From the NCBI RefSeq assembly GCF_000482705.1, contig NZ_AXWO01000001.1, forward strand, positions 1 to 64,000: 64,000 nucleotides of DNA, in the 5' to 3' direction. This DNA is from Glycomyces arizonensis DSM 44726. Lineage in GTDB: Bacteria > Actinomycetota > Actinomycetes > Mycobacteriales > Micromonosporaceae. Of the stretch, positions 7,875-29,752 are shown in pieces. Position 1 is the first letter of the stretch; every line of letters begins with the position of its first letter. The notes beneath the pieces are model-generated. The model was not told where the DNA came from. It did no database searches and worked only from the letters and a program-made list of their open reading frames with translations. Both the position numbers and the translations under genes were made by a program.

Positions 7875-8621
7875 TCAGATGCGTTCGAGTACGCCGCTTT
7901 CGACCAGCTCGCGCAGGTGTGCGGCGGTCTGCGCCGGGGCGAGTCCGCCGGTGACGAGGAGCCCGGCCTCCACATTGTGCTCCAGCCCCGAGGCGGTGAA
8001 GTTCGCGCTGGTCACCAGCAGGACTTCGCCGTCGGCGAGCGCGAGCTTGGCGTGGAGCTTCGCGTCGGCCGGGCGCAGCGCCTTGGGCCAGCTGTAGAGC
8101 CGGGCGCCCTCCAGACCGGCGAAGGCGTGCGCGGGCTCGTACCCGGCGATGGCCGACCCGGCCCCCGAGAGCGTCTCGACGGCGATCGACACGGCGACCC
8201 CGCGCCCCAGCGCCCCGCCGAGCGCCTCCAGCAGCGGCCGGTACGGCTTGGCGGCGTACGTCGACAGCCACAGCTCCCGCTCGGCCCCCTCGACGAGCCC
8301 GACGAGCGCCCTGGCGGTGTGCCGCACCGGCAAAGCGTGCTCGCGCGGCCCGGTCCACACCGCGTGGACGGCCTGCCGCCTGCGCGCGGCCCCGTCGCAC
8401 AGCCCCAGCAGGTACGCCTCGGCGCGCTCGGGCCCCCACGCGCGGGAGGCCTCGGCTATCCCGGCGATCGCCTCGGCGGCCTCGGGCCTGCCGATGCGCT
8501 CGGCGATGATCGACGGCAGCGCCCCGGCGGCGATGTCGCGCGCGCAGTCCTCCAAGGCGGCCGGTCCGATCAGGTCGACCAGCTCGCCCGCCCCGGCGCG
8601 GATCGCGGCCCTGGGGTTCAC
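7875..8621 (-). CDS. drmC: DISARM protein DrmC (PLD-like)
   Basis: 248 residues from the GTG at 8621, whose GTGA overlaps the drmB stop by four bases; a GTG two codons earlier (8627) is also possible. An alpha-helical N-terminus is followed by a phospholipase-D-like fold with a single HKD motif, HAKLALAD, then TSANFTASGLEHNVEAG, typical of PLD-superfamily proteins. DrmC is the PLD-like member of DISARM; published work on a class 2 system found it dispensable there, and its reaction is not settled. Translational coupling to drmB and co-orientation with drmA support the call strongly. Confidence 0.9.
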   Translation of the reverse strand: MNPRAAIRAGAGELVDLIGPAALEDCARDIAAGALPSIIAERIGRPEAAEAIAGIAEASRAWGPERAEAYLLGLCDGAARRRQAVHAVWTGPREHALPVRHTARALVGLVEGAERELWLSTYAAKPYRPLLEALGGALGRGVAVSIAVETLSGAGSAIAGYEPAHAFAGLEGARLYSWPKALRPADAKLHAKLALADGEVLLVTSANFTASGLEHNVEAGLLVTGGLAPAQTAAHLRELVESGVLERI

Positions 8622-10459
8622 GTCCACGGCGGCAGGAAGCTCAGGCCGTCGCCGAGGCCGACGACATAGCGGCGGTCGAGGAAGCGGTTCCCGCGCTCGC
8701 ACGTGGTCTCGGAGACGAACAGGCACGAGTGGCAGGCGGCCCCGTGCAGCGAATCGGCGGGTTCGGCGGGCAGGTGGTCGGCGCACACCGGGTCGCCCGA
8801 GCAGTGCTCGGCGTCCATCAAGGCCCGCCTGACGATGCGGGTGAGCCTGGCCGGCTCGGCGAGGCTGACGAGCCCGCCGAGGGTGCCCTCGGCGTCGGGA
8901 ACGGCGGTGTAGACGAGGATCCCGGCGCGGTCGTCGCCGTTGCTGTAGATGCGTTCGGCGAGGCTGGCCGCGTTGTAGCCGCATTCGAGGGCGATGGTGC
9001 GGATGAGCAGGTGCGAGAGGGTGTGCAGCACGACGTAGCCCATGCCGGGCCACCCGGCCATCGGGTCGAAGCCGCCTTCGAGGCGCCCCGAGTGCCGCTT
9101 CTCGCGGAACCGGCCCCACGCCCGTCGCAGCCGCTCGGCGGCCTCGGACGATTCATGCCGCCGCTCCCACTCCTTCAGCGCCTCGGCGTCGACGCGCAGG
9201 AAGATCCCCTCGCCGAAGACCTCGCTGGCCGGGACCCACGTGGGCTCGCCGCGGCTGAGCGGCGCGGTCGGCACGAGCTCGGGCTGCTCGGGGTCGGGCG
9301 CGTCGAGGCGCGTGAAGCCGTGGAAGGCCCGCACTTCGCGGAGCCGCTCGGCGCGGACGACGTCGGTGAAGTACGGCTTGAGCCGCGCGGGCACGCCGCC
9401 GGGGTCGCGGACGGCGGTGAAGTGCCGCCCGTCGTCGGGCCGCTCGGCGGTGAACGCCTTCCATTCGGGCGCGTAGAGGTCGCTCTCGGCCCCCGCGGTG
9501 CCGCCGGGCACGTGGGCGTCCAGCGCCGCGCGCAACTCGGCGGCCTCGTACGCGGCGAACGGCTTGAGTTGGGGCAGCGAGCGCATGATCGGTTCGAGCT
9601 GCTCGGCGCTCAAGGTGGCCACCGCTTCGAGGGATTCCCGGTGCTCGGCCACGAGCCCGGCGAGCGCGTCGTCGTGGTCGGGCGGCACGGACAGCACCGA
9701 GACCGTCTGCGGGAACCACAGGTTCGAGGCGCCGACGATGATCGGCCGGAGCTCCTCGCCGCAGGCGCTGTAGTCGCCCAGGTGCGGGTGGCGGCCCCGG
9801 CACACCGGCAGGTGCTCCTTGCCGCGCTCGCCCATGGCCTCGCGCAGGTTCCGCTCGGCCTTGCACGAGTCGCACTTGATGAGGACGTTGACCGCGCGGT
9901 TCCCGGCCCGGTCGAGCATCTGCAGCCGGGCGTCCTGCGCGCCGGGGCAGGTGCCGCCCTTGTGGACGAACCAGTCGTAGGGGAACTCGTCGAGGTGCCC
10001 TCTGCGGCACGCGAGCAGGAACCGCGCGGGGACGGCCTTGGCGTCGGTGCGCCCGCCGCAGTTGCGGTGCTCGAAGCGCGCGAGGTCGGGCCTGCCGCGC
10101 TTGGTGTTGACGTAGGTGAAGAACTTGCTCTCCAGCGAGGTGAGCCGGTTGCACCTGGTGCAGCGCATCCACGCGGGGAACGGCCGCACCGGCACCCCGT
10201 TCGGGGAGCGGTCGTCCTCCTCGGACAGCGGCACGAGCCGCAGCTGCGCGACCTTGCGGAGCCTGCGGCGGGTGGCCTCCAGCAGGCGCGGCTCGATGAC
10301 CTCGCGGTCGTCGTCGCGGTACTGGGGCTCCCAGTCGTCGAGCCCGCCGACGAGCGCGGCGATGTTCGGCAGGTCGATGATGGCGCCGATGCCGCCGGTG
10401 AACATGAGGTGGCTGGGCCGGGCGGTGCCGACCTCCCTGATGGGCTGCTTGGGGGCCAT
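8618..10459 (-). CDS. drmB: DISARM protein DrmB (DUF1998)
   Basis: 613 residues from ATG at 10459, two bases after the drmA stop. Cysteine pairs suited to zinc binding occur near residue 98 (CTRCNRL), further on (CDSCKAERN, with later Cys), and at the C-terminus, where the DUF1998 signature is seen (CADHLP, then ACHSCLFVSETTCERGN). In DISARM, DrmB works with the helicase DrmA; the pair is the conserved core and hinders incoming unmodified phage DNA. The two-base spacing implies tight co-translation. Length is in the usual range for DrmB. Confidence 0.93.
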   Translation of the reverse strand: MAPKQPIREVGTARPSHLMFTGGIGAIIDLPNIAALVGGLDDWEPQYRDDDREVIEPRLLEATRRRLRKVAQLRLVPLSEEDDRSPNGVPVRPFPAWMRCTRCNRLTSLESKFFTYVNTKRGRPDLARFEHRNCGGRTDAKAVPARFLLACRRGHLDEFPYDWFVHKGGTCPGAQDARLQMLDRAGNRAVNVLIKCDSCKAERNLREAMGERGKEHLPVCRGRHPHLGDYSACGEELRPIIVGASNLWFPQTVSVLSVPPDHDDALAGLVAEHRESLEAVATLSAEQLEPIMRSLPQLKPFAAYEAAELRAALDAHVPGGTAGAESDLYAPEWKAFTAERPDDGRHFTAVRDPGGVPARLKPYFTDVVRAERLREVRAFHGFTRLDAPDPEQPELVPTAPLSRGEPTWVPASEVFGEGIFLRVDAEALKEWERRHESSEAAERLRRAWGRFREKRHSGRLEGGFDPMAGWPGMGYVVLHTLSHLLIRTIALECGYNAASLAERIYSNGDDRAGILVYTAVPDAEGTLGGLVSLAEPARLTRIVRRALMDAEHCSGDPVCADHLPAEPADSLHGAACHSCLFVSETTCERGNRFLDRRYVVGLGDGLSFLPPWT

Positions 10460-10461
10460 GG

Positions 10462-13400
10462 TCAGTCACCGTCCTCGTCGGGGGTCTGCGCGGCGGTCCA
10501 GGCCGGCGGTTTGGGCGGTAGCGCGAGCAGTTCGGCGGCGGGCGGGAACAGCAGTTTCGCCTCGCCTTCGGTCTCGCGCATCGAGTTCGCGACGGTCCTG
10601 GTCCGCCATTCGGAGCCGTCGGCCGCCTCCAGCAGCCCGTTGCGGTTGGTCTGGCTCATGCCGGGCTTGTAGTGCAGGGCGCCGCGGGCCTGCTCGGTCT
10701 CCCACTCGTTGAACAGCGCCTCGGCGCGTTCGGCGAGGTAGGCGCCTTCGGCCCCGGCCACGTCCCCGGCGCGTTCGGCGAGGGTGTCGACGACGTCGCG
10801 CACGTGCCAGTCGTCGCGATCGAACCTGGCCGCGGCCGCGTTCGGCGACCAGGCGAGGTCGCCTTGGCGGATCGCGGCCACGAGGGCGCCGGTGGCGCCG
10901 CGCCAGAGCGACTGCCTGGTGAACGGCGTGACCGACAGCGCCTCGACTTGCCGATAGAAGCTGTCGTGGTAGTGGTAGAAGCCCTCGAAGTGGTCGAGGT
11001 CCCTGGGGCGCGTCCAGTTGTAGAGGGCCACGACGAGCCCGGGCCGGGCCGCGTCGCGCCCGACGCGCGAGGACGCCTGGATGTACTCGGCGGTGTTCTT
11101 CGGCTGACCGGTGACGACCATGAGCCCGAACCGCGAGACGTCAACGCCCACTTGGAGCATGGAGGTGGCCAGGACGGCGCCGGTGCGCGGCCGGTTCCGC
11201 TCGCGCTCGGCGAGCTGCTCGGCGCGCAGGTCGGCCGGGCGGCGCTCGCGCCTGGCCTCGCCCAGTTCGGCGCGCCAGCCGCGCTTGCGCGCCGTGGTGT
11301 CGCATTCGGGGTCGAAGCCGGTCTCCAGGTCCGCGAGCGTCCCGGCGATCTCCTTGGACGGGATGCGGGAGGTCAGCTCGGTGATCTTGAGGGTCTCGCC
11401 CTTGGCGAGGCGTTTGGGGAAGCCGTCGCGGGACCGGGAGGCGCGCAGCGAAACATCGTCGTCGAGATATCTCCTCATGCCAGCGAGTTCGCGGATCGCG
11501 TTGAAGTACCCCACCGGCGTCATGTACGGATCGGCGCTCGCCCCGTGCCGGTCGAACAGCGCCTGACCGGCGACGAGCAGCGTGTCCCACAGGCGGATCT
11601 CGGCCTGCTTGAGCCGCACGCCGTGCGCGCACAGCCCGAGGTAGCGCCTGCCCGGCGTCGCCTCGGTGACCGGGTCCTGCTTGGAGAAGAACGTGTCCTC
11701 GACGTCGAGCACCGGCGGCGGGAACAGCGCCACCCGCCGGTTGAAGACGCCCCGCACCTGCGCGGCCGAGCGCTTCGTGGTGGCGGTGGAGGCCACGATC
11801 TTGGGCCCGACGACGCGATCGTCGTACGGCCACTGGAGCAGGTAGTCCACCGCTGACTCGAACAGGGCGGTGCTGGTGCCCAGCGCCCCCGAGATGAGGT
11901 GCAGCTCGTCCTGGATGACGAGGTCCCACGGCCGCGGCTGCACCACCGGCTCGCTCGCCACGGCCGGTTGCCCGTTCGCGGCGTTGTGGCGGGCCGTGCA
12001 GCCGGTCTTGTCGTCGAGGTCGGGATGCCGGTAGCCGTGCCTGGGACAGCGGGAGGCGACGCGCCCGAAGAGCATTCCGGTCTCGCCCTTCCACGGCAGT
12101 TGCGCCAGCTTGTCCACGGTGGCGATGACGAAGGCGGGCAGGAGCCGGTAGACCTCCTCGTCGACGGTCACCACCGGCACGCCCTCGCCGGGCGACTCGC
12201 GCCGCGAGAACGGGCACCGGTCGGCGGCGCCGTTGTTGCGTCCGCAGTGGACCAGCACGCGCTGGCGGTGCTGGTCGACCTCGACGCAGTTGGCGTCGAA
12301 CGGCTCGCCGCACCACGGGCACGCCTGGAGTTGCAGCACGCGCGAGCCGGTGATCTGGCCGCTCGCGCGCACGTCCGCGACGTCGTCCTCGGCCTCCTTG
12401 AACGAGTTCGGCGTGACCTTCAGGCCCACCCACAGGCCGATGCGGAACGGCTCGGCCCCGAGCGCCTCAGGGTCGCCTCGGCGCAGCAGCTCGGCGGCGC
12501 ACACGAGCGCCGAGGCCCGCTGGAACTGCTGGGAGGTGAGCAGCCTGAGCGTGTAGCGCATGAACACGGCCACGCCCGCGGCGGCGTCCCTGGCGTCCTC
12601 CCCCGAGCCGGTGACGCCCTGGAAGCGGCGCATGGCGAGCGTGAACGCGGCCAGGCCGAGATACGCCTCGGTCTTGCCGCCGCCGGTGGGGAAGAACAGG
12701 AGGTCCACCAGGCCGTTGCGGGTGGCGGCACGCTCGGCGTGCCCGGGGTCGGCCAGGCTCGCGAGGTTGAGCAGCAGGAACGCGAGCTGGAACGGCCGCC
12801 ACGACGCCGCGCCCGGCCCCTTCGCCTCGATGGACGCCTTCGCGGCCGGGTAGCTCGCGCCGGTGGCGGCGCGGTGCGCGGCGATCTGCGTGTGGACGCG
12901 CTGCTCGGCCATCGCGGCCTGCGCGAACCGGAACGCCCGCAACGCGTCGGCGTGGTGCGGCGCGGCCTCGTCGGTGAGCAGCCGGACGCCCTCGGCGATG
13001 CGGTCGGCGATCGTGCGCGCCTGCTTCAGCGAGTCGGCGGCGTAGTCCCGCAGCTGCGCGGGGAGCCCGTCGATGCGCCCGGCCTGCTCGTCGAGCCAGG
13101 CGGCGTAGCCCTCGGCCAGCGGCGCGAGCCCGGCGCGCAGCGCGGCGGTGTCGGCCTCGGCGAGCGCGGCCATCGACAGCTCCAGGCCCGCCAGGTGCGG
13201 CGACGCGGTGGGCGCGGAGGTCCCGGGCACGTCGGTCACCGGGATCCACTCGGTGCGCAGCAGGTGCGCGCGCCGCTCTCCTTCGGCGACCTCGGCCTTC
13301 GCGGCCACGTTCCGGCCCGTCGCGAATTCGAGCTTGTTGCGGTAGAGCAGCCGCAGCCGCATCTCCTCGCCGTCCTCGGCGCCCGCGTCCGGCAGCTCGT

Positions 13401-14148
13401 CGGTGAGCGGGTCGTCGAACGGCAGGAAGATCGGGGAGGCGCCGTCCAGCGCCCGGACGGTGAGCCGCGGCTGGAACAGCCACGCCTCGTCGGCGTTGTG
13501 GCGCGGCTCGTGCTGGCCGTTGACGAGGCTCACGTTGACCACGGTGCGGCCGCCGCGGCGGCGGGTCTCGACGTTGAGCAGGACGCACGCCTCGTCCGCG
13601 GAGGCCCCGGTCAACGGGACGACCTGGCGGCCCTCGTCGAGCCGGATCTCCTTGGGGTGCGCGACGGGCGCGCGCTGCCACTTGCGGCGGCTCTTGCCGT
13701 CGTCGTCGGGCAGCGTGGCCTTCCGGTAGTGGCCCCATTCGGCGATGACGTGGATCGCGTCGGTCTCGGGCGCGACGGTGAAGGCCAGGCCCATGCTGGA
13801 GGCCCAGATGCGCCCGGCGTCGACCGGCGGCGTCTTGTCGGGCAGCTCGGGGTCCTCGGCCCCGGCCGCGACGCTCTGGCCGTCGTCGCCGTCGTCCAGG
13901 TCGTCGCCGCGCAGCGTCTTGGGGCCGAGCTGGCCGACGAGGTAGCGGTCGCGCGGCGAGTAGTGCTCGATGACCTCGTCCTCGGCGCCCCACGGGCCGA
14001 GCAGGTCGCGGGCGATGTAGTCGATGAGGCCGTCGCGCACCCCGAAGGAGGCGGCCTCGGCGAAGTCCTGCGGCGCGTGGAGCAGCTCGGCTGGGGTCGC
14101 GATGAGCGGGGACTGCGGGGACCTCGCGGACTGGGACGGCTCGGCCAT
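10462..14148 (-). CDS. drmA: DISARM helicase DrmA
   Basis: 1228 residues from ATG at 14148, with GGAGG a few bases upstream. An unassigned N-terminal region of about 450 residues precedes a superfamily 2 helicase core: Walker A FPTGGGKTEAYLG near 486, a DEAH-box-like QDELHLISG near 744, and the C-terminal lobe with VGVDVSRFGLMVVTGQP and YIQASSRVGR near 1022. A Cys cluster inserted between motifs I and II (CPWCGEPF, HCGRNNGAADRC, about 609-650) may bind zinc. DrmA is the DISARM helicase that with DrmB binds DNA ends or unmethylated DNA. It is first in the drmA-drmB-drmC operon here; drmMI and drmD are 8.3 kb upstream. Confidence 0.93.
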   Translation of the reverse strand: MAEPSQSARSPQSPLIATPAELLHAPQDFAEAASFGVRDGLIDYIARDLLGPWGAEDEVIEHYSPRDRYLVGQLGPKTLRGDDLDDGDDGQSVAAGAEDPELPDKTPPVDAGRIWASSMGLAFTVAPETDAIHVIAEWGHYRKATLPDDDGKSRRKWQRAPVAHPKEIRLDEGRQVVPLTGASADEACVLLNVETRRRGGRTVVNVSLVNGQHEPRHNADEAWLFQPRLTVRALDGASPIFLPFDDPLTDELPDAGAEDGEEMRLRLLYRNKLEFATGRNVAAKAEVAEGERRAHLLRTEWIPVTDVPGTSAPTASPHLAGLELSMAALAEADTAALRAGLAPLAEGYAAWLDEQAGRIDGLPAQLRDYAADSLKQARTIADRIAEGVRLLTDEAAPHHADALRAFRFAQAAMAEQRVHTQIAAHRAATGASYPAAKASIEAKGPGAASWRPFQLAFLLLNLASLADPGHAERAATRNGLVDLLFFPTGGGKTEAYLGLAAFTLAMRRFQGVTGSGEDARDAAAGVAVFMRYTLRLLTSQQFQRASALVCAAELLRRGDPEALGAEPFRIGLWVGLKVTPNSFKEAEDDVADVRASGQITGSRVLQLQACPWCGEPFDANCVEVDQHRQRVLVHCGRNNGAADRCPFSRRESPGEGVPVVTVDEEVYRLLPAFVIATVDKLAQLPWKGETGMLFGRVASRCPRHGYRHPDLDDKTGCTARHNAANGQPAVASEPVVQPRPWDLVIQDELHLISGALGTSTALFESAVDYLLQWPYDDRVVGPKIVASTATTKRSAAQVRGVFNRRVALFPPPVLDVEDTFFSKQDPVTEATPGRRYLGLCAHGVRLKQAEIRLWDTLLVAGQALFDRHGASADPYMTPVGYFNAIRELAGMRRYLDDDVSLRASRSRDGFPKRLAKGETLKITELTSRIPSKEIAGTLADLETGFDPECDTTARKRGWRAELGEARRERRPADLRAEQLAERERNRPRTGAVLATSMLQVGVDVSRFGLMVVTGQPKNTAEYIQASSRVGRDAARPGLVVALYNWTRPRDLDHFEGFYHYHDSFYRQVEALSVTPFTRQSLWRGATGALVAAIRQGDLAWSPNAAAARFDRDDWHVRDVVDTLAERAGDVAGAEGAYLAERAEALFNEWETEQARGALHYKPGMSQTNRNGLLEAADGSEWRTRTVANSMRETEGEAKLLFPPAAELLALPPKPPAWTAAQTPDEDGD

Positions 14149-14335: not shown

Positions 14336-14635
14336 TCAGGTGCTGCCGCCGTTCCGGGCCTGGCGCACCACGCCGATGGTGCTGCCGTAGATGATGCGGG
14401 CCCACGGGTCGCCCTTGGCGATCCAGCCTTCGAGCCAGGTGGACTCCGGCGGCGGGCAGAAGCGGTCCAGGCCCTCGACGGTCAGGATGCGGTACGGCTC
14501 TTGGAAGCCGTCGTCCAGCATGACGCGGACGGTCGTCGGATCGGTGGCGTCGTCTCCGATGACGATGAACTCCAGCGACTTCGCGAACCGGAAGGTCCCG
14601 AGCCGGTGGCCGGGTGTCTCATGCTCCTCGTTCAC
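14336..14635 (-). CDS. Small protein of unknown function upstream of drmA
   Basis: 99 residues starting at a GTG (14635) whose GTGA overlaps the stop of the gene before it, so the two are translationally coupled. Mixed alpha/beta composition with no signal peptide or membrane segment; motifs such as KSLEFIVIGDD and a Trp-rich C-terminal part (TWLEGWIAKGDPWARIIYG) give no family I recognise. It lies 187 bases ahead of drmA on the same strand, beyond a strong hairpin. A link to DISARM is possible only by position. Confidence 0.65.
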   Translation of the reverse strand: MNEEHETPGHRLGTFRFAKSLEFIVIGDDATDPTTVRVMLDDGFQEPYRILTVEGLDRFCPPPESTWLEGWIAKGDPWARIIYGSTIGVVRQARNGGST

Positions 14636-14940: not shown

Positions 14941-15710
14941 GCGCGTCTCCGTTCCAGTCGTGTGTGCGGCGGGAGCGGGCTCCGCAGTGCGGCGCCGAGC
15001 GCCTCGCTCCCGCCCGCCGGTGCGCCCCACCGCGCGCCGGCCTCTTGAACATAAGGGACGACATGGTGGATTCAAAGCAGTTGAGCTGGGAATTAATTCG
15101 GCACAGACGGCCACTATGCACAGAGCGATTGCGCGAGAGCGATGCCCGGAGAAGAGACGCGGAGGAAATGCACAAAGGAGTGGCCGCAGGAGCCTGCTCC
15201 CAACGGTGTCGATGATCGACACCGCGCCTGAAGGCATTTCAGGTCCCGGCGCGCCGGGGCCCGCGGCAGGGCGCCGCCGCAAGACCGGTCCTCGACTCCA
15301 TGCCTCGGGCGCATGAGCGGGCGCCTCGAACGCTCCACCGAGGGGCATCTCCTGGCGCCCTCGGGGTGCCGCCGAAGAACCGGCTCTCGATGCCAGCACC
15401 GCGCCTCGGGCACGCTCGCCGAACCGGAGCCGAGGAGCCGTCCCCGGACGGCTCCGGAGGCGCGGGCGCGTCCCCGGTTCGACCGCCCACCGGTTCGAGA
15501 CCGAAGCCGGGTTCGGCCACGGCCCGGCGCGTCCCCGGCCCGCCCGACCATCGGGAGGAGGCCCTCCTCGGAGCCGCGGCGTCGAGGCCGAGGACCGGTT
15601 CACCGGCGGCGCCCCGCGCTTCGCGGCGAGTGCCGTCCACGGCGGGGCGCACGCATGCGGGCGCCGCCGTCCGCCCGGCGGACGGCGGCGGCGCCTCGGT
15701 CATGCGGCCG
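14941..15710. other. Non-coding stretch with clustered hairpins
   Basis: No convincing gene. Visible structure: a hairpin GGTGTCGA-TGA-TCGACACC (15205-15223), a second CCTGAA-GGCAT-TTCAGG (15227-15243), and GAGCCGTC-CCCG-GACGGCTC (about 15436-15455). Short degenerate direct repeats occur around ACCGG, CTCGA and CCTCGGGC (15285-15420). The part beside 14940 is AT-richer and likely holds the promoter of the two small genes. Open frames here have no ribosome binding site or recognisable protein. Confidence 0.5.
15663..15689 (-). terminator. Terminator-like hairpin after the 200-residue secreted protein gene
   Basis: GCCGCCGTCCGC-CCG-GCGGACGGCGGC is a perfect 12-bp stem with a 3-base loop, 22 bases past the stop at 15711 in the direction of transcription. 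No T run follows, as is usual in very GC-rich actinobacteria. Confidence 0.55.
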
Positions 15711-16313: not shown

Positions 16314-16695
16314 GAGCGCTCCTTTCAATGGGCAAGTTCGATCTACAGTAGAACAGATCACTATGGATGCTCAAGGTCATGACCGATTGTCGACAGACGG
16401 CGATCCGCGCCGAAGCCGCACGCAACCCCGAACGCGCCCAGCGAATGCCGCATACGCTGCGGATCCACCGGCTCGACCCGGGAATGAGCGGAGCGGCGGC
16501 GCCGCCGTCGGCGAGGCCGCCTCCGGCTCCGAGTCCACCATGTACCGGCTTGCAGGCGTATCATGCCCTTTCGCGTCCGAGTACCGCCGCCGCGGCCCGG
16601 ACCCGTCGCGGACGCGGCGGGCCGGCACGGCGCGGGACTCGCGGGCGGCGCGCGCCATGGCCGGCCCGGCGGCCCCCGAATGCTAGGTTCGCCCG
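16314..16695. other. Intergenic region before the Nudix gene
   Basis: 382 bases. The end near 16314 holds the presumed promoter of the secreted protein gene, with an inverted repeat GATCT...AGATC over its -10 region. The rest is GC-rich, without a recognisable gene or strong hairpin. Confidence 0.45.
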
Positions 16696-20910: not shown

Positions 20911-20918
20911 GGAACGGC

Positions 20919-21263: not shown

Positions 21264-21452
21264 TTAGCGGCGCTTCGCGTTCTCCAGCAGGGCGACGAAG
21301 TCACCCTGGGTGAGCCCGAAGATCGGGGAATCCTCGGACAGCTTGGAGTCGCGAACCTCGAACCCGGCCCCGGCGGCACGGGTTTCAACGCAGTCACTGC
21401 CTGCCTGACCGTTGCCGGAACGGCTGGACTTGCGCCACTTCGTCGTGCTCAT
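21264..21452 (-). CDS. DUF397 protein
   Basis: 62 residues beginning MSTTKWRKSSRSGNG, the hallmark start of DUF397 proteins, with a conserved Cys and the end GDFVALLENAKR. ATG at 21452 overlaps the stop of the XRE/DUF5753 gene by four bases. DUF397 proteins are small partners of XRE/DUF5753 regulators, abundant in Streptomyces and relatives (BldB-like system); they act as modulators or toxin/antitoxin-like partners depending on the case. Role here unknown. Confidence 0.92.
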   Translation of the reverse strand: MSTTKWRKSSRSGNGQAGSDCVETRAAGAGFEVRDSKLSEDSPIFGLTQGDFVALLENAKRR

Positions 21453-22270
21453 AACAGTTGGAAATCCTTCATCGGTATGGCCTTCTTGACGGACTCGTCG
21501 AAGGCGTTCTGGAACGAGGCGACCGTCTCGGCCACCTCGCAGTAACGAGCCCCTTCAAACGATTCTAGGTAGACCGTCTTGGGGAACTCACCGCCCTCGA
21601 ACTCGAAGATCCGGAAGGAGCTGCCAGCGCAGTGGAACGCTCCCGTGCTGTTGGGCACCACCAGGAAGTTGAACAGCGAGAAGTCTCGGTCGAGCTTCTT
21701 GAGGTGTTCCACCTGCTCCACCATCACCTCATGCCCGCCCATATCACGCCGCAGCGCTGCCTCGGAGGTCAGGTAGATGACCTCGGGCAGCCAGTCCCGC
21801 TCCATGAAACTGGTCTGTCGGTCGAGTCGGAATCCGGCTGCTCCGGCCGGACCCTTCCGATCGGGTGCGTTGTCGTCGGTGATGGCGTCCATGTACGCCT
21901 CAGTCTGAAACAGACCGGTGATGAGCTCGGACTCGCAGATCATGATCTTGGAGGCGGTCAGCTCCATCTGAAGGAAGGTGAAGAACGCCGAAGGAATCTT
22001 GAAGGAGTGGAAGAAGTCTGGGCTCTCCGATGACTCTGCCAACCGCACGAGGTTGGCTTGCTCTTCCGGATTGAGCCCGTAGATGCGGGCAAAGCCGAGC
22101 ATGTCAACCCAGTTCACACGACGGGCGCGGGCATGTTCCAGGTCCCGGATCTTCGAGGTGCTCATGCCGAGCTCATCAGCGGCTCGCTTGTGGGTGTACT
22201 TGGCCCGCTTGCGGTACTGAACGAGGAGTCGAGCGACTTGGATGTTGGTGAGGAAAGCCTCTGTACTCAT
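21449..22270 (-). CDS. XRE-family regulator with DUF5753 domain
   Basis: 273 residues. N-terminal helix-turn-helix (about 10-65: RLLVQYRKRAKYTHKRAADE, STSKIRDLEHAR), then DUF5753 (from about 95: ESELITGLFQTEAYMDAI, RLDRQTSFMER, EAALRRDMGG, FNFLVVPNSTGAFHCAGSSF). Forms the usual pair with the downstream DUF397 gene by a four-base overlap. Codon use looks less GC-rich than neighbours, as in the adjoining end of drmMI. Such pairs control development or antibiotic genes, or sit on mobile DNA; there is no evidence for control of DISARM beyond proximity. Confidence 0.9.
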   Translation of the reverse strand: MSTEAFLTNIQVARLLVQYRKRAKYTHKRAADELGMSTSKIRDLEHARARRVNWVDMLGFARIYGLNPEEQANLVRLAESSESPDFFHSFKIPSAFFTFLQMELTASKIMICESELITGLFQTEAYMDAITDDNAPDRKGPAGAAGFRLDRQTSFMERDWLPEVIYLTSEAALRRDMGGHEVMVEQVEHLKKLDRDFSLFNFLVVPNSTGAFHCAGSSFRIFEFEGGEFPKTVYLESFEGARYCEVAETVASFQNAFDESVKKAIPMKDFQLL

Positions 22271-22421
22271 GACACGAATGGTGACAGCACAACTACACCA
22301 AATTCAACTCTCTGATCGGTGTTTCGGCCAGCCAACGGACGTAACACGCCTACGTAACCCATTTTCTGTCGGCCATCTGACACTTGATGGGTGATGCCGG
22401 GGAAGGCGAGTATCTATCGGT

Positions 22422-25400
22422 TTAGAACAGCGAGTCCTGGCCCGGCGTCGCTGGCTTTGGCTTGGCAGCCTTGCGGGTTGCCTTCTTGGCAGTCTTCTTC
22501 TTGGCGTGAAGCCCTTGCTCGACCTCGATGGCGTAGCGGCGCTGGTTCTCTTCGAGCAGCCGATCCAGGATCTCTTGGCGCGGACCGGGTGCGATCGTGT
22601 AGCGGGTGCCCTGGCGCGTGTCGTAGTGGTCGTGAGAGAGCTCGGGGATCAAATCGTCCCAGCCGTAGCACCGGCACACCTCATCGTCGATCAGCCGGTG
22701 GATCTCCCGCAGGTTCGCAATGTCTGCATCAGAGTTGGCTTGATCATGGACCATGTTGTAGGTATCGGTGAGCCCAGCCTCCCGGGCCAGCATCAACTCC
22801 CGCCGCTCTGAGTCCAGCCGATCACCGAGCCTGCGGAGTTCCTCAGAGATCTCGGGCCGCGGGAGCGTCTCGAACACATCGGTTGGAGTGTACCGAAGGT
22901 CGCCCTTCATCGTCGATGCCCGCTGGATCGCCCACCAATAATGAGGAGCACTTGACAGGTAAGACAACAAAGCGGCATCATCCGATGCAAAGACCCCAAG
23001 CATGTGGGAGAACACCTGCCCAGTTGGAACCATGACAGGCATGACCACCTTGCTCACCAAGGTAATCACAATCACCCGATCCAACTCCGAGATCGCCTCA
23101 TATAGATCAGTGGCCGGACGCGTGAATCTCCACCATATTTCACGCCGTTGCCTGTTTGCGTTGGTTTCTCGCTCAGGCTTTACCAGCCGCACTACTTGAT
23201 CGAAACACTCTGGATAAGTTCGCGCCCGCTCTAGATCCCAATCATGGAAATTGATGACCCATCGGCTTGCTGATGCATCGGATCGTTGATTAAGATCCTG
23301 CCCATTCAAATACGGGAACAACACATCCTTGTTTCTCGAGTTTTTCGCGATCAGGTCAGTGGCCCTTTCCGGTTCCATGGTGAACCCAAGACCCAGGATA
23401 TTTGAGCCTTGGAAAGCCATACCTTGATTCGCAAACAAGCGTTCAGCGTTGCCTTGAACTCGAGACATGGGATCCAATGACGGAATCACTCCACGGACCG
23501 ACTGTCCATCAAGGCAACGATATGCCTGTTCAGACACTAGCGCTCTCGAGGTCCACACTGCGCAGTATTCCAGAGCAGCACTCTTCGAAGGCCAGCGTTC
23601 GCTCTTAACAGCCGATCGGATCGTCACGCCCGCAGAGACAATCTGGTCCAAACCGACCTCGCGGGTATCACCTTGGGCAAGAGTGTTGGTAGCAACCAAC
23701 CCCGCCTGCCCTTCGGCAGCGAGCAGATCATGCGCGCGGAGCAAGAAGTATGCAACCAGATCGGCGCTTCCACGTGCTCGACGCCCAATGAACCCGACCA
23801 GATATTCCCTGTAGGCCGTGCCAAGGCTTCCTGTAAGCCTTTGGCCCCCAAGGAACGGGGGGTTACCCACGATCGCGTCGAAGCCTCCCAACTCGAAGAC
23901 CTCTGGGAAGACCAGCCGCCAGTGGATCGGGGCTCGCTCGAACGCTCCCGCAGGCTGATCAGTCCTGAGCCATTGAGCCACCTGCCTATCGAGCTTCGCT
24001 CGGCCTTCCTCGCTCTGGTCATTACCGAGATCCGCGGCCACCAACCAAGCATTCGGGTTTCCTGCGAGCCCAGCGCCCACGAGCAAGTCTGCGTACCGAC
24101 CCGCCTCGTCGGTCAGTTCCCTCGCCCGCTCCAGCAGCTCCCGCTTCATCTCCTGGTCGGTCGCGCTCTTGTCGCCGATTTCGCCGATCGCCTTCCGCGT
24201 CTCGGCGGCCTCGGCCACCAGCTCCCGCACATGAGCCGTGTAGTCGAGGATCGTTCCCTCGTGCAGCTTCCGACCTTCGGCGGGGTCCAAGTGCATGTAC
24301 TCCAGCTGTTCAACACTGGTGATCCCGAGCAGACTGTCCCCACACACCAACCGGTCATCCAGGAACGTAAACGGCCGCTCCTTATCCATGGACACCAGCC
24401 ACAACGACAGCTTCGCCATCTCGACCGCTGCCGGGTTGATGTCGGCCCCATACAAACAGTGCTCGATAATCAGTCTGCGGGCCTCGATCAGGTTCGGGTC
24501 CTCTCGGCTCCCGTCCAACTGATCGGCCTCGGCGACCGCTCCCCTCGGATCGCCCTCGGCCTTCCACGCCTCCAGCAACCGGTCACCCAAGAACCTGCAC
24601 GCCGCCACCAGGAACGCCGCCGAACCCATCGCAATATCGGCGACCTTCAACCCCAGGATCGCCTCACTCCCCTTGAGCCGCCAAGCGTCCTCATCCGCCG
24701 TCTGCAACGGCCCCGGCTCGTACACCAGCGGCTCAAGCGCACCCTTCACCACTTCATCGGCGAGCTTCCTCGGCGTGTAGTGCGCACCCGTGTTCCCCCG
24801 CAGCTGCGACTCGGTCATATACAGCATGTCGGGCAGCACCACAGTGGCCTGTCCGCGCAGATCGGCCCGGATGATCCCGTAGAACGGCATGAGCCGCTCG
24901 ACCAACTGCGGGTCGTTCCGCGTCACCGACAGCAAGTCCCGCTCGGCCCTCTCGCGCTGTTCGGCGTCCATCGGGCCGAGCAGCTTGGCGATCGCGTTCG
25001 CCGTGCCGATACCGCTCTTCTGGTCCTTCTCGAACCGCTCGTGCACCGCAGCGGCCAGCGCCGCCACGTCCCCACCGGCGCGCTCGCGCATCGCCTCCAG
25101 CTCCCGCAGCGGGACCTCGGCCTCCTTGCTCTCGGTGCCGATGAGCCCCACCACGACCCCGTCGGCCTCGCTCGACCAGCGCCCCTCCCAGGCGAGCAGG
25201 CCCTCGTAGACGTAGCCGATCTGCTCAACATCGAGCCGGTCGAAGTTGAGCGTCCGGTATTCGCCCTTGGGCCTGCGCTTGGGGTCGGCGAGTTGGAGGC
25301 CGTTGAGCGAGCGCGGGGTCCGCTGCCGTCCGGCGCTCATCCAGACCGTGGTCACGGACTTGAGCACGTTGTGGATGGTGCGGTCGTCGATGGCGAGCGG

Positions 25401-26624
25401 CTGCTCGGCGTCGGTCATCCACGGGTACGCGCTCGGGTCGAACAGCGAGCCGCCGTAGGCCGGGATGGACAGCTCGGCGGTGTCCACTCCCCTGTGCACG
25501 GCGTTGAACAGTGCGAGGAGCCGCAGCCAGGACCGGTGGCGCTGCTCCAGGTGCGCCTCGCTGCCCTCGTCGGCGAGCCGCTGCAGCCGCTTCGCGGCTT
25601 CGGCCACCGAGTAGGACTCGGCGTAGAGCGGGTTGTCGGTCGGCAGGAGCCGCTTCTCTTCGGCGAAGAGCAGGAACACCAGGCGCATCATGACCGTGAC
25701 CGCGCCTCGGTAGACCTCGTCGGCTTCGACGAGCCTGCGGGTGCCGTCTGCGGCCTCGGTGGTGATGCCGAGCCCGTCGCGGGCCTTCTTGGCGATGTGG
25801 GCGCGGCCGATGGCCTCCACGAGCAGCTCGACGGCCCGGCGCACCTGGACGCCGAGGGTCTCGGTGAGTTCCTCTTCCTTCTCGGCCGAGTCGCGGAAGA
25901 GCTGCGGCAGTTGCCGCTCGGGCTCGTAGTCGGTGAAGCGGCGGCGGTTCAGGAGGCTGAACAGGGCGCGCAGGACGACCAGGTCGGAGGCGTCGGTGAT
26001 GGTCATCGTGTCGAAGACGCCGTAGGCGCTCGCGGCGCTGCCGCCGGAGGCCGCGGCGGGCGTGTAGACGAGGGCGAGGTATCGGCCGTCGGTGGCGATG
26101 CCGAGTTCGAGCTTGTTGTCCGCGCAGAGCCGCACGACCCGGTCGATGGGGCTGGCCGTCCACGTCTCGTCGCGCATGCGCTTGGCGGGGTGGTTGCCGG
26201 GCGGGACGATGAGGCCGACCACGCGCGCCTCGTCGCCGTTGTGGAGGACGAAGCTCGGCGCGACGGTCGCGTCGTGCTGGCCGATGTGGACCGGGCCCAC
26301 ACCGTCGACCGTTTCCTCATCGTCTTTGGGGAACCGAAGATGATCGACAACCGTCCAGCCGAGGAAGTCGGCCAGCAGGGTCTCGATCCAGGCCCGCGAG
26401 CGCTGCTCGTCGTCCGGGTGCTCGGCCCATTCGCCGTGGGCGGACCGCAGGGCCTTGCGCCGCTCGACCGGGACGGCGTCGAGGTCGGGCCAGGCGGCGG
26501 TGAGGACCGGCAGGGACAGCCAGGGTCCGTCGGTGTCGATGAGCTCGATCCAGTCCTGGTGGCCGCGGGTGCGGTCCGAGCCGGTGCGGTGGTGCTTGAA
26601 CCGGATCTGTTCGGGGCGGCTCAT
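22422..26624 (-). CDS. drmMI: DISARM class 1 adenine-specific DNA methyltransferase DrmMI
   Basis: 1400 residues from ATG at 26624, overlapping the drmD stop by four bases and preceded by AAAGGGAG. The frame stays open far upstream, but that is antisense-type read-through. Motifs: GAHYTPRKLADEVV near 612, SAM-binding DIAMGSAAFLV near 661, and the catalytic NPPF near 919 in GNPPFLGGQR, as in Eco57I/PglX-type N6-adenine methylases. The region after NPPF (about 920-1270) should contain target recognition and is visibly AT-richer than the rest. The tail is Lys/Ala-rich (KKKTAKKATRKAAKPKPA) and ends DSLF. In class 1 DISARM this enzyme marks host DNA as self. It is followed by XRE/DUF397 genes instead of drmA. 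Confidence 0.92.
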   Translation of the reverse strand: MSRPEQIRFKHHRTGSDRTRGHQDWIELIDTDGPWLSLPVLTAAWPDLDAVPVERRKALRSAHGEWAEHPDDEQRSRAWIETLLADFLGWTVVDHLRFPKDDEETVDGVGPVHIGQHDATVAPSFVLHNGDEARVVGLIVPPGNHPAKRMRDETWTASPIDRVVRLCADNKLELGIATDGRYLALVYTPAAASGGSAASAYGVFDTMTITDASDLVVLRALFSLLNRRRFTDYEPERQLPQLFRDSAEKEEELTETLGVQVRRAVELLVEAIGRAHIAKKARDGLGITTEAADGTRRLVEADEVYRGAVTVMMRLVFLLFAEEKRLLPTDNPLYAESYSVAEAAKRLQRLADEGSEAHLEQRHRSWLRLLALFNAVHRGVDTAELSIPAYGGSLFDPSAYPWMTDAEQPLAIDDRTIHNVLKSVTTVWMSAGRQRTPRSLNGLQLADPKRRPKGEYRTLNFDRLDVEQIGYVYEGLLAWEGRWSSEADGVVVGLIGTESKEAEVPLRELEAMRERAGGDVAALAAAVHERFEKDQKSGIGTANAIAKLLGPMDAEQRERAERDLLSVTRNDPQLVERLMPFYGIIRADLRGQATVVLPDMLYMTESQLRGNTGAHYTPRKLADEVVKGALEPLVYEPGPLQTADEDAWRLKGSEAILGLKVADIAMGSAAFLVAACRFLGDRLLEAWKAEGDPRGAVAEADQLDGSREDPNLIEARRLIIEHCLYGADINPAAVEMAKLSLWLVSMDKERPFTFLDDRLVCGDSLLGITSVEQLEYMHLDPAEGRKLHEGTILDYTAHVRELVAEAAETRKAIGEIGDKSATDQEMKRELLERARELTDEAGRYADLLVGAGLAGNPNAWLVAADLGNDQSEEGRAKLDRQVAQWLRTDQPAGAFERAPIHWRLVFPEVFELGGFDAIVGNPPFLGGQRLTGSLGTAYREYLVGFIGRRARGSADLVAYFLLRAHDLLAAEGQAGLVATNTLAQGDTREVGLDQIVSAGVTIRSAVKSERWPSKSAALEYCAVWTSRALVSEQAYRCLDGQSVRGVIPSLDPMSRVQGNAERLFANQGMAFQGSNILGLGFTMEPERATDLIAKNSRNKDVLFPYLNGQDLNQRSDASASRWVINFHDWDLERARTYPECFDQVVRLVKPERETNANRQRREIWWRFTRPATDLYEAISELDRVIVITLVSKVVMPVMVPTGQVFSHMLGVFASDDAALLSYLSSAPHYWWAIQRASTMKGDLRYTPTDVFETLPRPEISEELRRLGDRLDSERRELMLAREAGLTDTYNMVHDQANSDADIANLREIHRLIDDEVCRCYGWDDLIPELSHDHYDTRQGTRYTIAPGPRQEILDRLLEENQRRYAIEVEQGLHAKKKTAKKATRKAAKPKPATPGQDSLF

Positions 26625-29600
26625 CGGTTCTCCCTTTCCGGTACGACGCAGACGATCGCGAGCGGGGTGCGGTGGCCTCGCGGGTCGGCGTAGCGGGCGG
26701 CGACGGCGGCCAGTTCGCGGTCGCGCTCGGCGTCGAGCTGCGCGAGGCGCTCGTTCCAGTGGGCCTCGTCGCGGCGGGCCTGCTGGAGTTCGAGCTCGGC
26801 GAGCCCGGCCAGTTCGTCGTCGCCCGCCTTGCGGCCCTGGACGGCCGCTTCGAGAGAGGCGCGGAACTGCTCGTAGTCGGCTCGGATGCGGTCCCGCTCC
26901 TCGGTGACGCGGCGCTCCAGGAGGCGGCCGAGTGATTCGCCGCGGGCGGCGGTGCGCCACTCCAGGGCGGCCCGCAGACCCCGGTCGGCCTCGGTCCAGT
27001 GCTCGGCGAGGCGGAGGCGGGCGCCCGGCCCGGCCTCCTTGCCGCGATCGAGGGCGGCGTCGAGGATCTCGGCGGTGCGGGTGAGGTTCTCCAGGCGGCG
27101 GAAGCGGCCGGTGCCCGAGTCGAGCCAGCCGCCGACGGCCATGATCTCCTGGTGCAGCTGCGTGGAGCCCTCGCCGGTGAGGGTGTACTTGGCGTAGGCG
27201 GCGACGAAGAGGTCTTCGAGGTCGTCGGGGCCGAGGACGGCGGTGACGCGGTGGAGGTCGACGCGGTCGGAGTCGGCGGCGGCCCGCAGGAGCCGCGCGG
27301 ACATGTCGACCAGCGGGTGGGAGAGGTGGGCCAGGACGACGTCGTCGCGGCCCTGGGCCGCTTCGGGATCGAAGGTGACCGGCCGCTGGTGGGGCTCTTC
27401 GCCTCCGGGGACGAAGGGGGTGAGGAGGCCGTCGGTGGCGCGGACCCATTCGCCGGTCATGACGGGGACCGCGAACTCGCCGGGCTTGGCGGCGAGGGGC
27501 TTGAGGGGCATCTGGTGGGCCAGGTCGAGGGCGGTGTCCACGACGCGGCGGATGCGCTCGGGGTAGAGGTGGAGCTCGGCCACGCTGTTCTCGTAGGTCT
27601 CGCCGAGGCGCTCGACCTGCTCGGAGACGTTCGATGCGGCCTTCACCTCGCCGGTCCCCCGGCCGCGGGCGGCGGCGCGCTGGGCGAGGGCGTCGACGTC
27701 GGCCACGGTGGCGTCCCCGGCGAGGCGCTTCTGGAGGGCGTCGGCGAGGACGGGGTTGACCGAGCCGAGGTCGGTCTGCATCTGGCTGACCTTGACGGCC
27801 ACGCGGGCGAGGAACTCGATCTCGCCCTTGAAGGCGGAGGAGGCGCCGGTCTCGGCGGGGGTGAAGTTGTAGACCTCGGGGCGGTGGCGCTGGCCGTAGC
27901 GGTCGATGCGTCCGGCGCGCTGCTCGAGCTTGTTGGGGTTGAACGGGATGTCGTAGTTGACCAGGCGGTGGCAGTGGTTCTGGAGGTCGATGCCCTCCCC
28001 GGCGGCGTCGGTGGCGAGGAGGACGCGGAGCGGGTGCTCGCCGGGGTGGGCCTGGAAGGCGAGGCGGGTCTGCTCGCGCTCGTCGACGTCCATGCCGCCG
28101 TGGAGGAGGGCGACGCGGTCGCCGCCGAAGCCCTGCGAGGCGAGGAGTTCGTGGAGCCAGTGGAGGGTGTCGCGGTACTCGGTGAAGACCACCACCCGCT
28201 CTTCCGACCACTCGCCGTCCGGTTTGCAGGTGGCGGTGAGGAAGTCGAGGAGGGCGGCGGCCTTGGTGTCGGGGGCGGCGCGGTGCTCGGCGGCCCAGGC
28301 GTTGATCCGGGCGAGGAGGGCGTGCTCGGCGGGGTCGAGGCGCTCCTCGTAGCCGGCCGAGCGCCGCAGGCCGTCCTCTTCGTACTCGTAGAGCTCCTCG
28401 TCGTCGAGGACGGCGGTCTCGTCGAGGAAGTCGTCGTAGAAGTCGGGGACGGCGTCGCTGGGGGCGGCGGGCGCGGGCGGCAGGGCCCCGGCGTAGGCGG
28501 CGTAGGTGTTGGCGAAGGCCTGGGGGCTGGACAGGAGGCGCTTCTTGAGCAGGAGGGTGACGAGGTCGGCGGCGGCGCGTCCGCGCCTGCCCTTCGCGCG
28601 GCGGGCGCGGCGGGCCTCGGTGAACTCGCTGAAGCGCTCGTGGACGGCGAGTTCGTCGGCGGTGTAGTCCAGGGGCAGGTCGCGGACGATGCGGGAGGGG
28701 AACTCGGGGCGCCCGTCGGGGCCGGTGATGGAGGACTTGAGGCGGCGGATGACCACGTCGTTCTGGGCGGCGGGCGAGGGCGGGACGCCGCGGGCGAAGC
28801 GGGCGGGGTCGAGGATCTCCAGCAGGGCGGTGAAGGACTCGGGGTAGCCGTTGTGCGGGGTGGCCGAGAGGAACAGGCGGTGCGTGAAGTGGCGGGCGAG
28901 GGCGCGCATGGTCTTGGTCTGCTGGGAGTCCACGGCGTAGCGCTGCTTCGGGGCGGCGGGGGCGATGTGGTGGGCCTCGTCGAGGATGAGCAGGTCGAAG
29001 AAGGGGCGGGCCTCCTCGCCCGTGCCGTTGAAGTCCGTGCCGCGCAGGAGCTCGCCGAAGAGGAGGCGCTCGGCCTTGGGGCCGCGGAGCCACGGGAGGG
29101 AGACGATGGTGTGGCGGTGGACCTCGAAGGGGTTGGCGCCGTTGCCCCGCTCGCGGCGCAGGTCGGTGTAGGTCTGGGCGTTGACGATGGTGAAACGGAG
29201 GCCGAAGAGGTCGAACATCTCGTCGCGCCATTTGGTGGTGAGCCCGGCGGGGCAGACGATCATGACGCGCCCCGCGCGGTGGCGGAGCATGAGCTCGCTG
29301 GCGACGAGCCCGGCCTCGACGGTCTTGCCGAGGCCGACGTCGTCGGCGAGGAGCTGGTTGACGCGCGGGGCGGACAGGGAGCGCCAGACGGGTTCGAGCT
29401 GGTAGAGCTTGATGTCGGCGCCGGAGCGGAAGGGGGCCTGGAGGGAGCGGGTGTCGGCGCTGGTGAGGGCGGACCAGCGCATGGCGTCGAGGAAGGCGGC
29501 GAGCTGGCCGGGCCTGTCGAAGCCGTCGCCGCGGACCTCGGGGAGGCCGGAGGCGGGCAGGAGGCGGCGGCCGGGTTCGAGTTCCCAGACGAGGCGGAGG

Positions 29601-29752
29601 GTCTCGCCGAAGGCGTCGTCGGCGAGGCTGCCCAGTTCCACGATCGTGTCGGTGCCGGAGGCGTCGACGTCGGCGACGATCCAGCGCGAGTCGCGGACCT
29701 CGACCCGGTCGCCGACGGCGGGCGGCTCGTTGACTTGCGCGGTGGTGGCCAT
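26621..29752 (-). CDS. drmD: DISARM class 1 SNF2-type helicase DrmD
   Basis: 1043 residues from ATG at 29752 (GGAGAG upstream; an ATG at 29806 is less likely). SF2/SNF2 core: Walker A in LADDVGLGKTVEAGL near 136, DEAHH near 255, FLSATPHNGYPESF, and the C-terminal lobe with LLATDAAGEGIDLQNHCH and KLEQRAGRIDRYGQ near 580-617. The C-terminal part (about 800-1043) is helical and Arg/Glu-rich, coiled-coil-like. DrmD is the class 1-specific helicase, encoded next to drmMI. The ATGA overlap with drmMI means coupled translation. Confidence 0.93.
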   Translation of the reverse strand: MATTAQVNEPPAVGDRVEVRDSRWIVADVDASGTDTIVELGSLADDAFGETLRLVWELEPGRRLLPASGLPEVRGDGFDRPGQLAAFLDAMRWSALTSADTRSLQAPFRSGADIKLYQLEPVWRSLSAPRVNQLLADDVGLGKTVEAGLVASELMLRHRAGRVMIVCPAGLTTKWRDEMFDLFGLRFTIVNAQTYTDLRRERGNGANPFEVHRHTIVSLPWLRGPKAERLLFGELLRGTDFNGTGEEARPFFDLLILDEAHHIAPAAPKQRYAVDSQQTKTMRALARHFTHRLFLSATPHNGYPESFTALLEILDPARFARGVPPSPAAQNDVVIRRLKSSITGPDGRPEFPSRIVRDLPLDYTADELAVHERFSEFTEARRARRAKGRRGRAAADLVTLLLKKRLLSSPQAFANTYAAYAGALPPAPAAPSDAVPDFYDDFLDETAVLDDEELYEYEEDGLRRSAGYEERLDPAEHALLARINAWAAEHRAAPDTKAAALLDFLTATCKPDGEWSEERVVVFTEYRDTLHWLHELLASQGFGGDRVALLHGGMDVDEREQTRLAFQAHPGEHPLRVLLATDAAGEGIDLQNHCHRLVNYDIPFNPNKLEQRAGRIDRYGQRHRPEVYNFTPAETGASSAFKGEIEFLARVAVKVSQMQTDLGSVNPVLADALQKRLAGDATVADVDALAQRAAARGRGTGEVKAASNVSEQVERLGETYENSVAELHLYPERIRRVVDTALDLAHQMPLKPLAAKPGEFAVPVMTGEWVRATDGLLTPFVPGGEEPHQRPVTFDPEAAQGRDDVVLAHLSHPLVDMSARLLRAAADSDRVDLHRVTAVLGPDDLEDLFVAAYAKYTLTGEGSTQLHQEIMAVGGWLDSGTGRFRRLENLTRTAEILDAALDRGKEAGPGARLRLAEHWTEADRGLRAALEWRTAARGESLGRLLERRVTEERDRIRADYEQFRASLEAAVQGRKAGDDELAGLAELELQQARRDEAHWNERLAQLDAERDRELAAVAARYADPRGHRTPLAIVCVVPERENR

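Follow-up and report, generated by a model that had tools for sequence, protein, structure and literature searches.

The opening 64 kb of contig C1 (NZ_AXWO01000001.1) of the Glycomyces arizonensis DSM 44726 genome (5.05 Mb, 49 contigs), hereafter the window, contain the genes of a class 1 defence island system associated with restriction-modification (DISARM) in two separate blocks. Was this locus broken by chance, or does the interval between the blocks belong to the system? A sequence-only reading of the same DNA had treated the split as a one-off. It is instead common: drmMI and drmA lay apart in 12 of 32 loci sampled across the order and in 40 of 67 loci among the nearest relatives. The data indicate that the window locus represents a variant of class 1 DISARM that recurs across relatives rather than an accident of one genome. 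We consider it fairly likely that this variant is a two-unit system with an internal slot that takes up regulators and accessory defence genes. Genomes, contigs and loci are cited below by our handles (G, C and L numbers).

The window encodes five intact, open Drm proteins on the minus strand, and each gave a strong PADLOC match, with DrmD and DrmMI aligned almost end to end (Table 1). The class 1 identity proposed by the sequence-only reading is thereby confirmed. The genes all retain motifs that we take to be catalytic. Their coordinates give the order drmD-drmMI-drmA-drmB-drmC on a single strand, which is the canonical class 1 order and was matched by 27 contiguous loci of relatives. By DrmMI, the closest named relatives are Glycomyces. 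A 4-base overlap joins drmD to drmMI, and drmA, drmB and drmC are similarly packed. Between drmMI and drmA lie 8274 bp and nine genes; the two blocks had been placed about 8.3 kb apart, and the coordinates agree. The locus is thus not a contiguous operon in the window. Contiguity was not taken as defining class 1 DISARM, as 40 of 67 resolved relatives are also non-contiguous.

Two samples were used to determine how often the junction is open. The order sample comprised 397 genomes drawn evenly from the order, 37 of which had a DrmMI match at E<=1e-100. A hand tally of the 32 with whole drmMI and drmA on one contig found the genes contiguous in 20 and separated by more than ~1 kb in 12; the remaining 5 of 37 were cut by contig ends or had no drmA there. 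The nearest-relative sample consisted of the best 79 of 527 DrmMI candidate loci plus the window. These 80 loci are not an unbiased census: several pairs come from a single genome, some genomes are shared with the other sample, and the counts ignore relatedness. Contiguity of drmMI and drmA among them, the comparison suggested earlier, came out as 27 contiguous (<=600 bp) and 40 split loci, with a further 13 left unresolved by contig ends, drmA on another contig, or orphan or tandem drmMI. Seven splits measured 0.6-2.5 kb, 18 measured 2.5-10 kb and 15 exceeded 10 kb, with a maximum of 35.0 kb. The other junctions were closed where visible: drmD-drmMI exceeded 300 bp in 1/61 loci, drmA-drmB exceeded 600 bp in 0/40 and drmB-drmC exceeded 600 bp in 0/34. 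Both blocks kept order and strand in the 40 split loci, which come from many genera.

The 403 genes called in the gaps of both samples, with some genomes counted twice, were clustered. The widest families were XRE-DUF5753 (37 loci), DUF397 (23) and a HATPase_c_2 protein (21; Pfam was run on two HATPase members). They are the WhiJ, BldB and AbaA families treated in the consulted part of PMC10294661. According to family profiles, at least one of the three occurs in 27 of the 40 split gaps (whiJ 25, bldB 23, abaA 19), the scan covering the initial 10 kb in each of the 15 gaps longer than this. The trio was found mostly in larger gaps (26/33 above 2.5 kb vs 1/7 smaller ones). The density of whiJ was 0.100 per kb in gaps and 0.016 per kb upstream of drmD. 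A bias from profiles trained on gap genes was considered and rejected, as the counts barely changed with an independent model trained on nine WhiJ paralogues from non-DISARM locations (11 of 20 were dropped as too short or not open). This control model placed whiJ in 25/40 split gaps (0.098 per kb) and in 7/72 stretches upstream of drmD (0.017 per kb). Seven loci have an upstream copy, and all but one of these are contiguous loci of Nocardiopsis and Streptomonospora. As a rough yardstick from a different model, 512 DUF5753 matches in ~137 Mb of 18 genomes give a background of ~0.004 per kb.

The regulators are also ordered and inherited. The usual layout in Streptomyces gaps is drmMI(+) bldB(-) whiJ(-) abaA(+). 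The WhiJ of the S. bungoensis DISARM locus has gap orthologues in six further genomes (81-90% identity) and one of 65% in a seventh. Among the matches listed, most of its other relatives were at <=46%; the exceptions away from DISARM are in G412 (56%) and, as two pieces, in G414 (69%). In a WhiJ tree of 54 sequences, only 11 of them from elsewhere and with six gap copies below 230 amino acids left out, the label "gap" needs at least 7 changes on well-supported branches; therefore, regulators entered the slot on several occasions and were inherited thereafter. Gap copies make up 13/13 rows of one Streptomycetaceae clade and 6/6 of one Thermomonosporaceae clade.

Pfam and our own gene finder gave the order of the window's gap, from drmMI to drmA, as a WhiJ-like regulator, a BldB-like protein, an XRE regulator, a hexapeptide transferase, an acyl-CoA dehydrogenase, a Nudix hydrolase, a signal-peptide-like protein, and the small genes s2 and s1. 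The genes listed by the sequence-only reading are present, and its plural DUF397/XRE pairs reduce to one XRE-DUF397 pair and a second XRE gene without a DUF397 partner. whiJ starts 152 bp after drmMI and overlaps bldB by 4 bases; an XRE helix-turn-helix with DUF5753 beside DUF397 is the composition of a WhiJ-BldB pair. No profile hidden Markov model match to an AbaA-like HATPase was found within the window. In L059 (Glycomyces sp. L485), the same genes occur in the same order, with DNA identities of 82% for drmD-drmMI (72% in the recognition part), 79% for drmA, 82% for whiJ-bldB (22382-21192) and 71% for s2-s1 (15123-14302). The 6.06 kb passenger block is unmatched there, and the matching flanks stop at 16897 and 17082. 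L485 has its own extra DNA in two other places: 1.47 kb ahead of whiJ, carrying a PIN-domain gene (Pfam), and 3.0 kb ahead of drmA. Thus whiJ-bldB and s2-s1 were kept with DISARM in the window and L485 while the passengers vary. Insertion and new accessories, the two explanations offered earlier, are each partly true: whiJ-bldB and s2-s1 accompany DISARM in two Glycomyces, and 6.06 kb is passenger DNA. No convincing repeats flank the window's gap as marks of an insertion or invertible segment. The low guanine-cytosine (GC) content of the drmMI 3' end was rejected as a sign of recent insertion, since contiguous loci show an equal dip.

Copies of the cassette were found elsewhere in the genus. 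A search of 22 Glycomyces genomes for whiJ at >=75% identity yielded six sites, spread over 4 genomes, two of the copies being fragments. At 6/6 sites the stretch also carries s2, which passengers separate from whiJ in G163 and in the window. One more s2, more distant (41%), is present in G248, where whiJ had no match. The s1 and s2 relatives that carry organism names are all Glycomyces. On contig C3 of the window's own genome (L174, L173), whiJ (80%)-bldB-s2-s1 follows a DrmMI-like/IIG methylase by 190 bp. This methylase is preceded by a DpdE-like (DpdE/DrmD-like) helicase (1264 bits) and a DruE/DpdJ-like helicase, and further along C3 are genes matching DrmA and DrmB, a methylase and a UvrD helicase (the last by tblastn). 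The first three genes are like those of ARMADA type I as given in the available part of PMC12458937; C3 is a separate system on another contig, assigned by gene-order resemblance only. In G428:C21 (L175:970-18947), the cassette lies between JetB-JetC-JetD (Wadjet type II) and a PD-T4-6-like kinase with type I restriction genes. The idea that s1 and s2 are strictly DISARM-specific partners was rejected, as they also occur beside other systems, as relics and, for the distant s2, in G248.

A candidate operator was found at both halves. In upstream alignments of Streptomyces loci, the palindrome TGTGAAC-N3-GTTCACA precedes both drmD and drmA. At <=2 mismatches out of 14, the loci (2.44 Mb, including overlapping stretches of the same genomes) contain 48 copies, against 2 in one shuffle preserving base composition only. 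Upstream of drmD, it was present in 39/72 loci at <=3 mismatches (0.58 expected from shuffles) and in 31/72 at <=2 (0.02 expected), at a median distance of 146 bp. Upstream of drmA, <=3 mismatches were found in 17/33 split loci (0.23 expected) vs 0/27 contiguous loci (0.2 expected). Among the 31 split loci with both regions, 15 had both sites, 3 the drmD site only, 2 the drmA site only and 11 neither. A near match in the window's whiJ (22102-22118, one mismatch) was dismissed as chance and is not conserved in L059, L174 or L175. A divergent regulator beside the drmD operator was also considered and rejected; judged by eye, most of the neighbours examined encode secreted proteins, membrane proteins or other enzymes, and none is clearly a regulator. 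In two Streptomyces loci (L073:5027-6553, L077:5296-6558), serine/threonine-kinase-like genes, by eye, lie just upstream of drmD, and at the left ends of L073, L081 and L097 the palindrome precedes another kinase-like gene several kb further upstream.

Glycomyces has upstream elements of its own. The TGGTAACCTCGTGA block before drmD is largely conserved in four Glycomyces loci and may correspond to an extended -10 element, which it resembles; it is the sole window match at <=2 mismatches, a count that alone is not above chance (0.51 expected). TTACG-N7/8-TTACG precedes whiJ in four aligned Glycomyces cassette copies, and its 1 window match at <=1 mismatch is likewise not above chance by count alone (0.44 expected).

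The drmMI end of the junction is itself variable. The identity of the window's drmMI to that of L059 breaks at 24064/24038. In four genomes of one genus, probably Actinopolyspora (L010, L011, L012, L014), DrmMI identity is 93-100% as far as residue ~900; over residues 900-1200, 17/18 pairwise 100-residue windows are at 34-76% and one is at 97%. Judged from these alignments, the pattern in the four same-genus genomes is recognition-domain exchange. In G169 and G282, a second recognition region follows drmMI in inverted orientation, with inverted repeats of 541 nucleotides (95%) and 374 nucleotides (97%) and an adjoining serine recombinase. S. calidiresistens (L088) has an inverted repeat of 246 bp at 98.8%; no relative of the G169/G282 recombinase was found within the stretch examined there. 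These inverted spare domains suggest that the specificity and self-marking of DISARM could be invertible, making the system a candidate for phase variation. Invertible recognition domains may help explain why the drmMI/drmA junction is open. Separately, a DDE transposase with 29-nucleotide inverted ends breaks drmMI near residue 943 (L022:7284-8726). Two whole or partial drmMI genes per DISARM locus were seen in L065, L064, L102, L056 and L015 (L062), the second being inverted in L065.

How might such a locus work? In the consulted portion of PMC9142583, DrmMI marks self DNA in described DISARM and the Drm proteins restrict. The same division is assumed here, so that DrmMI would mark self DNA and DrmD, DrmA, DrmB and DrmC would restrict unmodified DNA. 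In the window, unit 1 would be drmD-drmMI-whiJ-bldB and unit 2 s2-s1-drmA-drmB-drmC-uvrD, each on its own transcript. Two transcripts are plausible because both halves carry a common operator in other genera (not found in the Glycomyces tested). The slot between the units would be common to many actinomycete DISARM loci and refilled over time, with regulators and small partners at its inner edges and passengers in the middle. WhiJ-BldB would gate one or both units, with WhiJ as a DNA-binding activator and BldB as its antagonist. We infer this control from the precedent of WhiJ9-BldB at iosA in Streptomyces venezuelae, as set out in part of PMC10294661. Taken together, the data suggest that the gap is a control slot rather than random damage. 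A wider proposal is that some WhiJ-BldB(-AbaA) paralogues are dedicated phage-defence switches and that DISARM is a two-unit regulon, with a control slot plugged differently by lineage and a common operator that synchronises the halves; we put this forward tentatively, at somewhat less than an even chance.

Several observations weigh against a two-unit system with a control slot. None of the trio was found in 13/40 split gaps. The S. bungoensis WhiJ has its best match away from DISARM in two Streptomyces genomes, G422 and G425. The operator evidence is narrow in lineage: 13/15 two-operator loci are Streptomycetaceae, in counts that ignore relatedness, the others being L095 (Frankia) and L046 (Actinomadura), and the palindrome was absent before drmD and drmA in the three Glycomyces loci tested (window, L059, L029). 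Some loci that carry the palindrome have no WhiJ, which makes WhiJ an unlikely candidate for the protein that binds it. Two Glycomyces DISARM loci, L029 and L030, have gaps of 8.3 and 12.2 kb filled with other genes common to both, and whiJ-bldB and s2-s1 were not found in these gaps (all but the last 2.2 kb covered in L030); hence the whiJ-bldB-s2-s1 cassette is not obligatory even inside the genus. Moreover, XRE-DUF397 pairs are abundant, with 12 DUF5753 matches in the window's genome, and they have been proposed as toxin-antitoxin pairs in literature of which excerpts were consulted. This proposal would suit a pure hotspot, in which a drmMI 3' end made recombinogenic by domain exchange catches any DNA and WhiJ-BldB is mobile or addictive cargo that does not regulate DISARM. 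The divergence of the recognition domain after residue ~900 in the four same-genus genomes, the spare inverted domains at the same junction in G169, G282 and L088, and the diversity of the passengers are all as such a hotspot would predict. It does not account well for regulators whose position and direction are constant across most Streptomyces gaps and which, in a large group of those gaps, are orthologues amid differing cargo, for the trio upstream of drmD in Nocardiopsis-type contiguous loci, or for paralogous Glycomyces cassettes adjoining other defence systems. We regard the hotspot alone as rather unlikely.

The split could also be a step in the loss of DISARM, leaving the system inactive in this strain. 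Relics give this some substance. G163 is collinear with the window's site, sharing the GmrSD gene (90% DNA identity), s1-s2, Nudix, bldB and the 3' half of whiJ, without drmABC-uvrD and drmD-drmMI; the junctions of the passenger block recur there identically. Contig C38 of G436 has s1-s2-bldB and a whiJ fragment amid the same flanking genes, and the intact DISARM of G436 is on C23. The interval between the two genes on either side of the site measures 41.4 kb in the window, 24.4 kb in G163, 8.6 kb in G436 and 3.3 kb in G429; in the remaining 18/22 genomes these genes are on separate contigs (12) or one was not found (6). The relics probably mean that this one site lost DISARM more than once and kept the cassette, although the cassette may instead have reached the site before DISARM. 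Decay of the window locus itself is improbable, as its five genes are full-length and open, retain the motifs taken to be catalytic, and split loci occur in many genera. A further candidate for a remnant of lost DISARM is L023:8088-9497 (G151), where a piece of a drmMI recognition region lies beside a drmD-like start. Finally, an orphan drmD-drmMI modification pair might merely neighbour an orphan drmABC. The 8.3 kb gap and the loci L071 and L089, in which drmMI has no drmA at the expected place, are compatible with two unrelated systems. The sequence-only reading had named a second drmA set beside another drmMI as the finding that would separate the halves, and no such set was found in that form: the genome has one DrmMI match at E<=1e-100, and a second DrmA/DrmB pair, on C3, lies ~17 kb from another, DrmMI-like methylase. 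Together with the canonical order and strand kept in 40 split loci, this has largely refuted the idea of two systems, which we consider extremely improbable.

The two-unit reading sets the window beside known systems as follows. It has all five class 1 DISARM proteins in the same order and orientation, and differs in that the blocks are 8.27 kb apart, with regulators and small genes on the inner edges and passengers between; 27/67 resolved relatives are contiguous. Compared with the Streptomyces WhiJ-BldB-AbaA modules in the sections consulted of PMC10294661, it shares an XRE-DUF5753 gene beside DUF397, a HATPase nearby in other lineages, and, as a candidate operator, direct repeats before whiJ, but its pair is embedded in DISARM and no AbaA-like gene was found. 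An AbaA-like HATPase lies near 5/10 S. venezuelae bldB paralogues according to the same sections and is thus not required, and the main text mentions DISARM 0 times. The Cutibacterium acnes DISARM (PMC7365801, excerpts) is likewise interrupted by defence cargo, a 32.5 kb defence island, but its drmMI is broken into three, whereas the window's genes are intact and the gap lies between two genes. In the open-licence PubMed Central literature, covered mostly by listing, we came across no description of a split but intact DISARM accompanied by WhiJ-BldB, nor any of DISARM operators or inverted DrmMI domains.

These findings bear on several matters. The many Streptomyces copies of whiJ, bldB and abaA mostly have no assigned purpose, and the repeated, consistently placed link to DISARM leads to the hypothesis that some of them control phage defence. 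Detection rules that demand neighbouring drm genes may overlook DISARM, or report it in pieces, in Streptomyces and its relatives, whose blocks are up to 35 kb apart. The operator before both halves offers a concrete DNA site for finding the regulator of DISARM.

Table 1. Features of the DISARM locus and its surroundings (window positions unless a locus is named)
Feature	Position	Strand	Basis or remark
drmD, SNF2-type helicase	26621-29752	-	PADLOC DrmD 1272.6 bits, profile covered almost end to end
drmMI, adenine methylase	22422-26624	-	PADLOC DrmMI 1622.1 bits, nearly full profile
drmMI target-recognition region (3' part)	~22424-24040	-	GC 50-64% in 400-base bins
drmA, SF2 helicase	10462-14148	-	PADLOC DrmA 913 bits
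drmB	8618-10459	-	PADLOC DrmB 247 bits
drmC, phospholipase-D-type nuclease	7875-8627	-	PADLOC DrmC 283.5 bits, scanned inside longer open reading frame
TGGTAACCTCGTGA block upstream of drmD	29803-29816	-	alignment
Direct repeat TTACG-N8-TTACG upstream of whiJ, candidate operator	22340-22357	-	alignment
whiJ-like regulator, XRE HTH_31 + DUF5753	21449-22270	-	Pfam; 82% identical copy at L059 DISARM
bldB-like DUF397 protein	21264-21452	-	Pfam DUF397; 86% identical copy at L059
Passenger block, 6.06 kb	15124-21183		occupies what is a short bldB-s2 intergenic region in L059
XRE-family regulator (passenger)	19417-20712	+	Pfam HTH_3/HTH_31 on longer open reading frame; gene call
Hexapeptide-repeat transferase (passenger)	18489-19262	-	Pfam Hexapep
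Acyl-CoA dehydrogenase (passenger)	17215-18492	-	Pfam Acyl-CoA_dh_M and _1
Nudix hydrolase (passenger, also in G163 relic)	16696-17196	+	Pfam NUDIX; 88% DNA identity to G163
Signal-peptide-like protein (passenger)	15711-16313	-	gene call
Conserved non-coding block upstream of s2, candidate unit 2 promoter	14941-15124	-	six cassette copies aligned
s2, 102 amino acids	14632-14940	-	14 family proteins including the window's; no Pfam match
s1, 99 amino acids, overlaps s2	14336-14635	-	11 family proteins including the window's; no Pfam match
UvrD-like helicase directly after drmC	5626-7755	-	Pfam UvrD; 34% to Streptomyces UvrD
GmrSD_N + RAMA protein (PADLOC HEC-05), recurrent DISARM neighbour	2976-5036	+	Pfam
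Inverted second DrmMI recognition regions	L021:7785-10309 (recombinase 10368-11669); L022:8762-11423 (recombinase 11451-12713); L088:13172-14999		

Accessory defence genes recur around the DISARM loci. Eight Streptomyces gaps of 18-35 kb have a common set on the drmA side and a variable middle. With domains read on one member each, the set comprises a helicase of ~1990 amino acids with an MTES_1575 nuclease domain (8/8), a UvrD protein (8/8), a GmrSD-type protein (7/8) and a protein of 279 amino acids (5/8). The large helicase is represented by L114:2943-8792 and its relatives. UvrD relatives at other DISARM loci lie after drmC, before drmD or inside the gap. In the order sample, UvrD was found in 78/397 genomes, and a hand comparison placed it ~30 kb or less from class 1 DISARM in 12/37 DrmMI genomes. 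A 53-54% identical homologue of the GmrSD_N-RAMA protein lies between drmMI and drmA in G283. The signal-peptide-like passenger protein of the window has a ~31% identical relative at 32765-33385, upstream of drmD.

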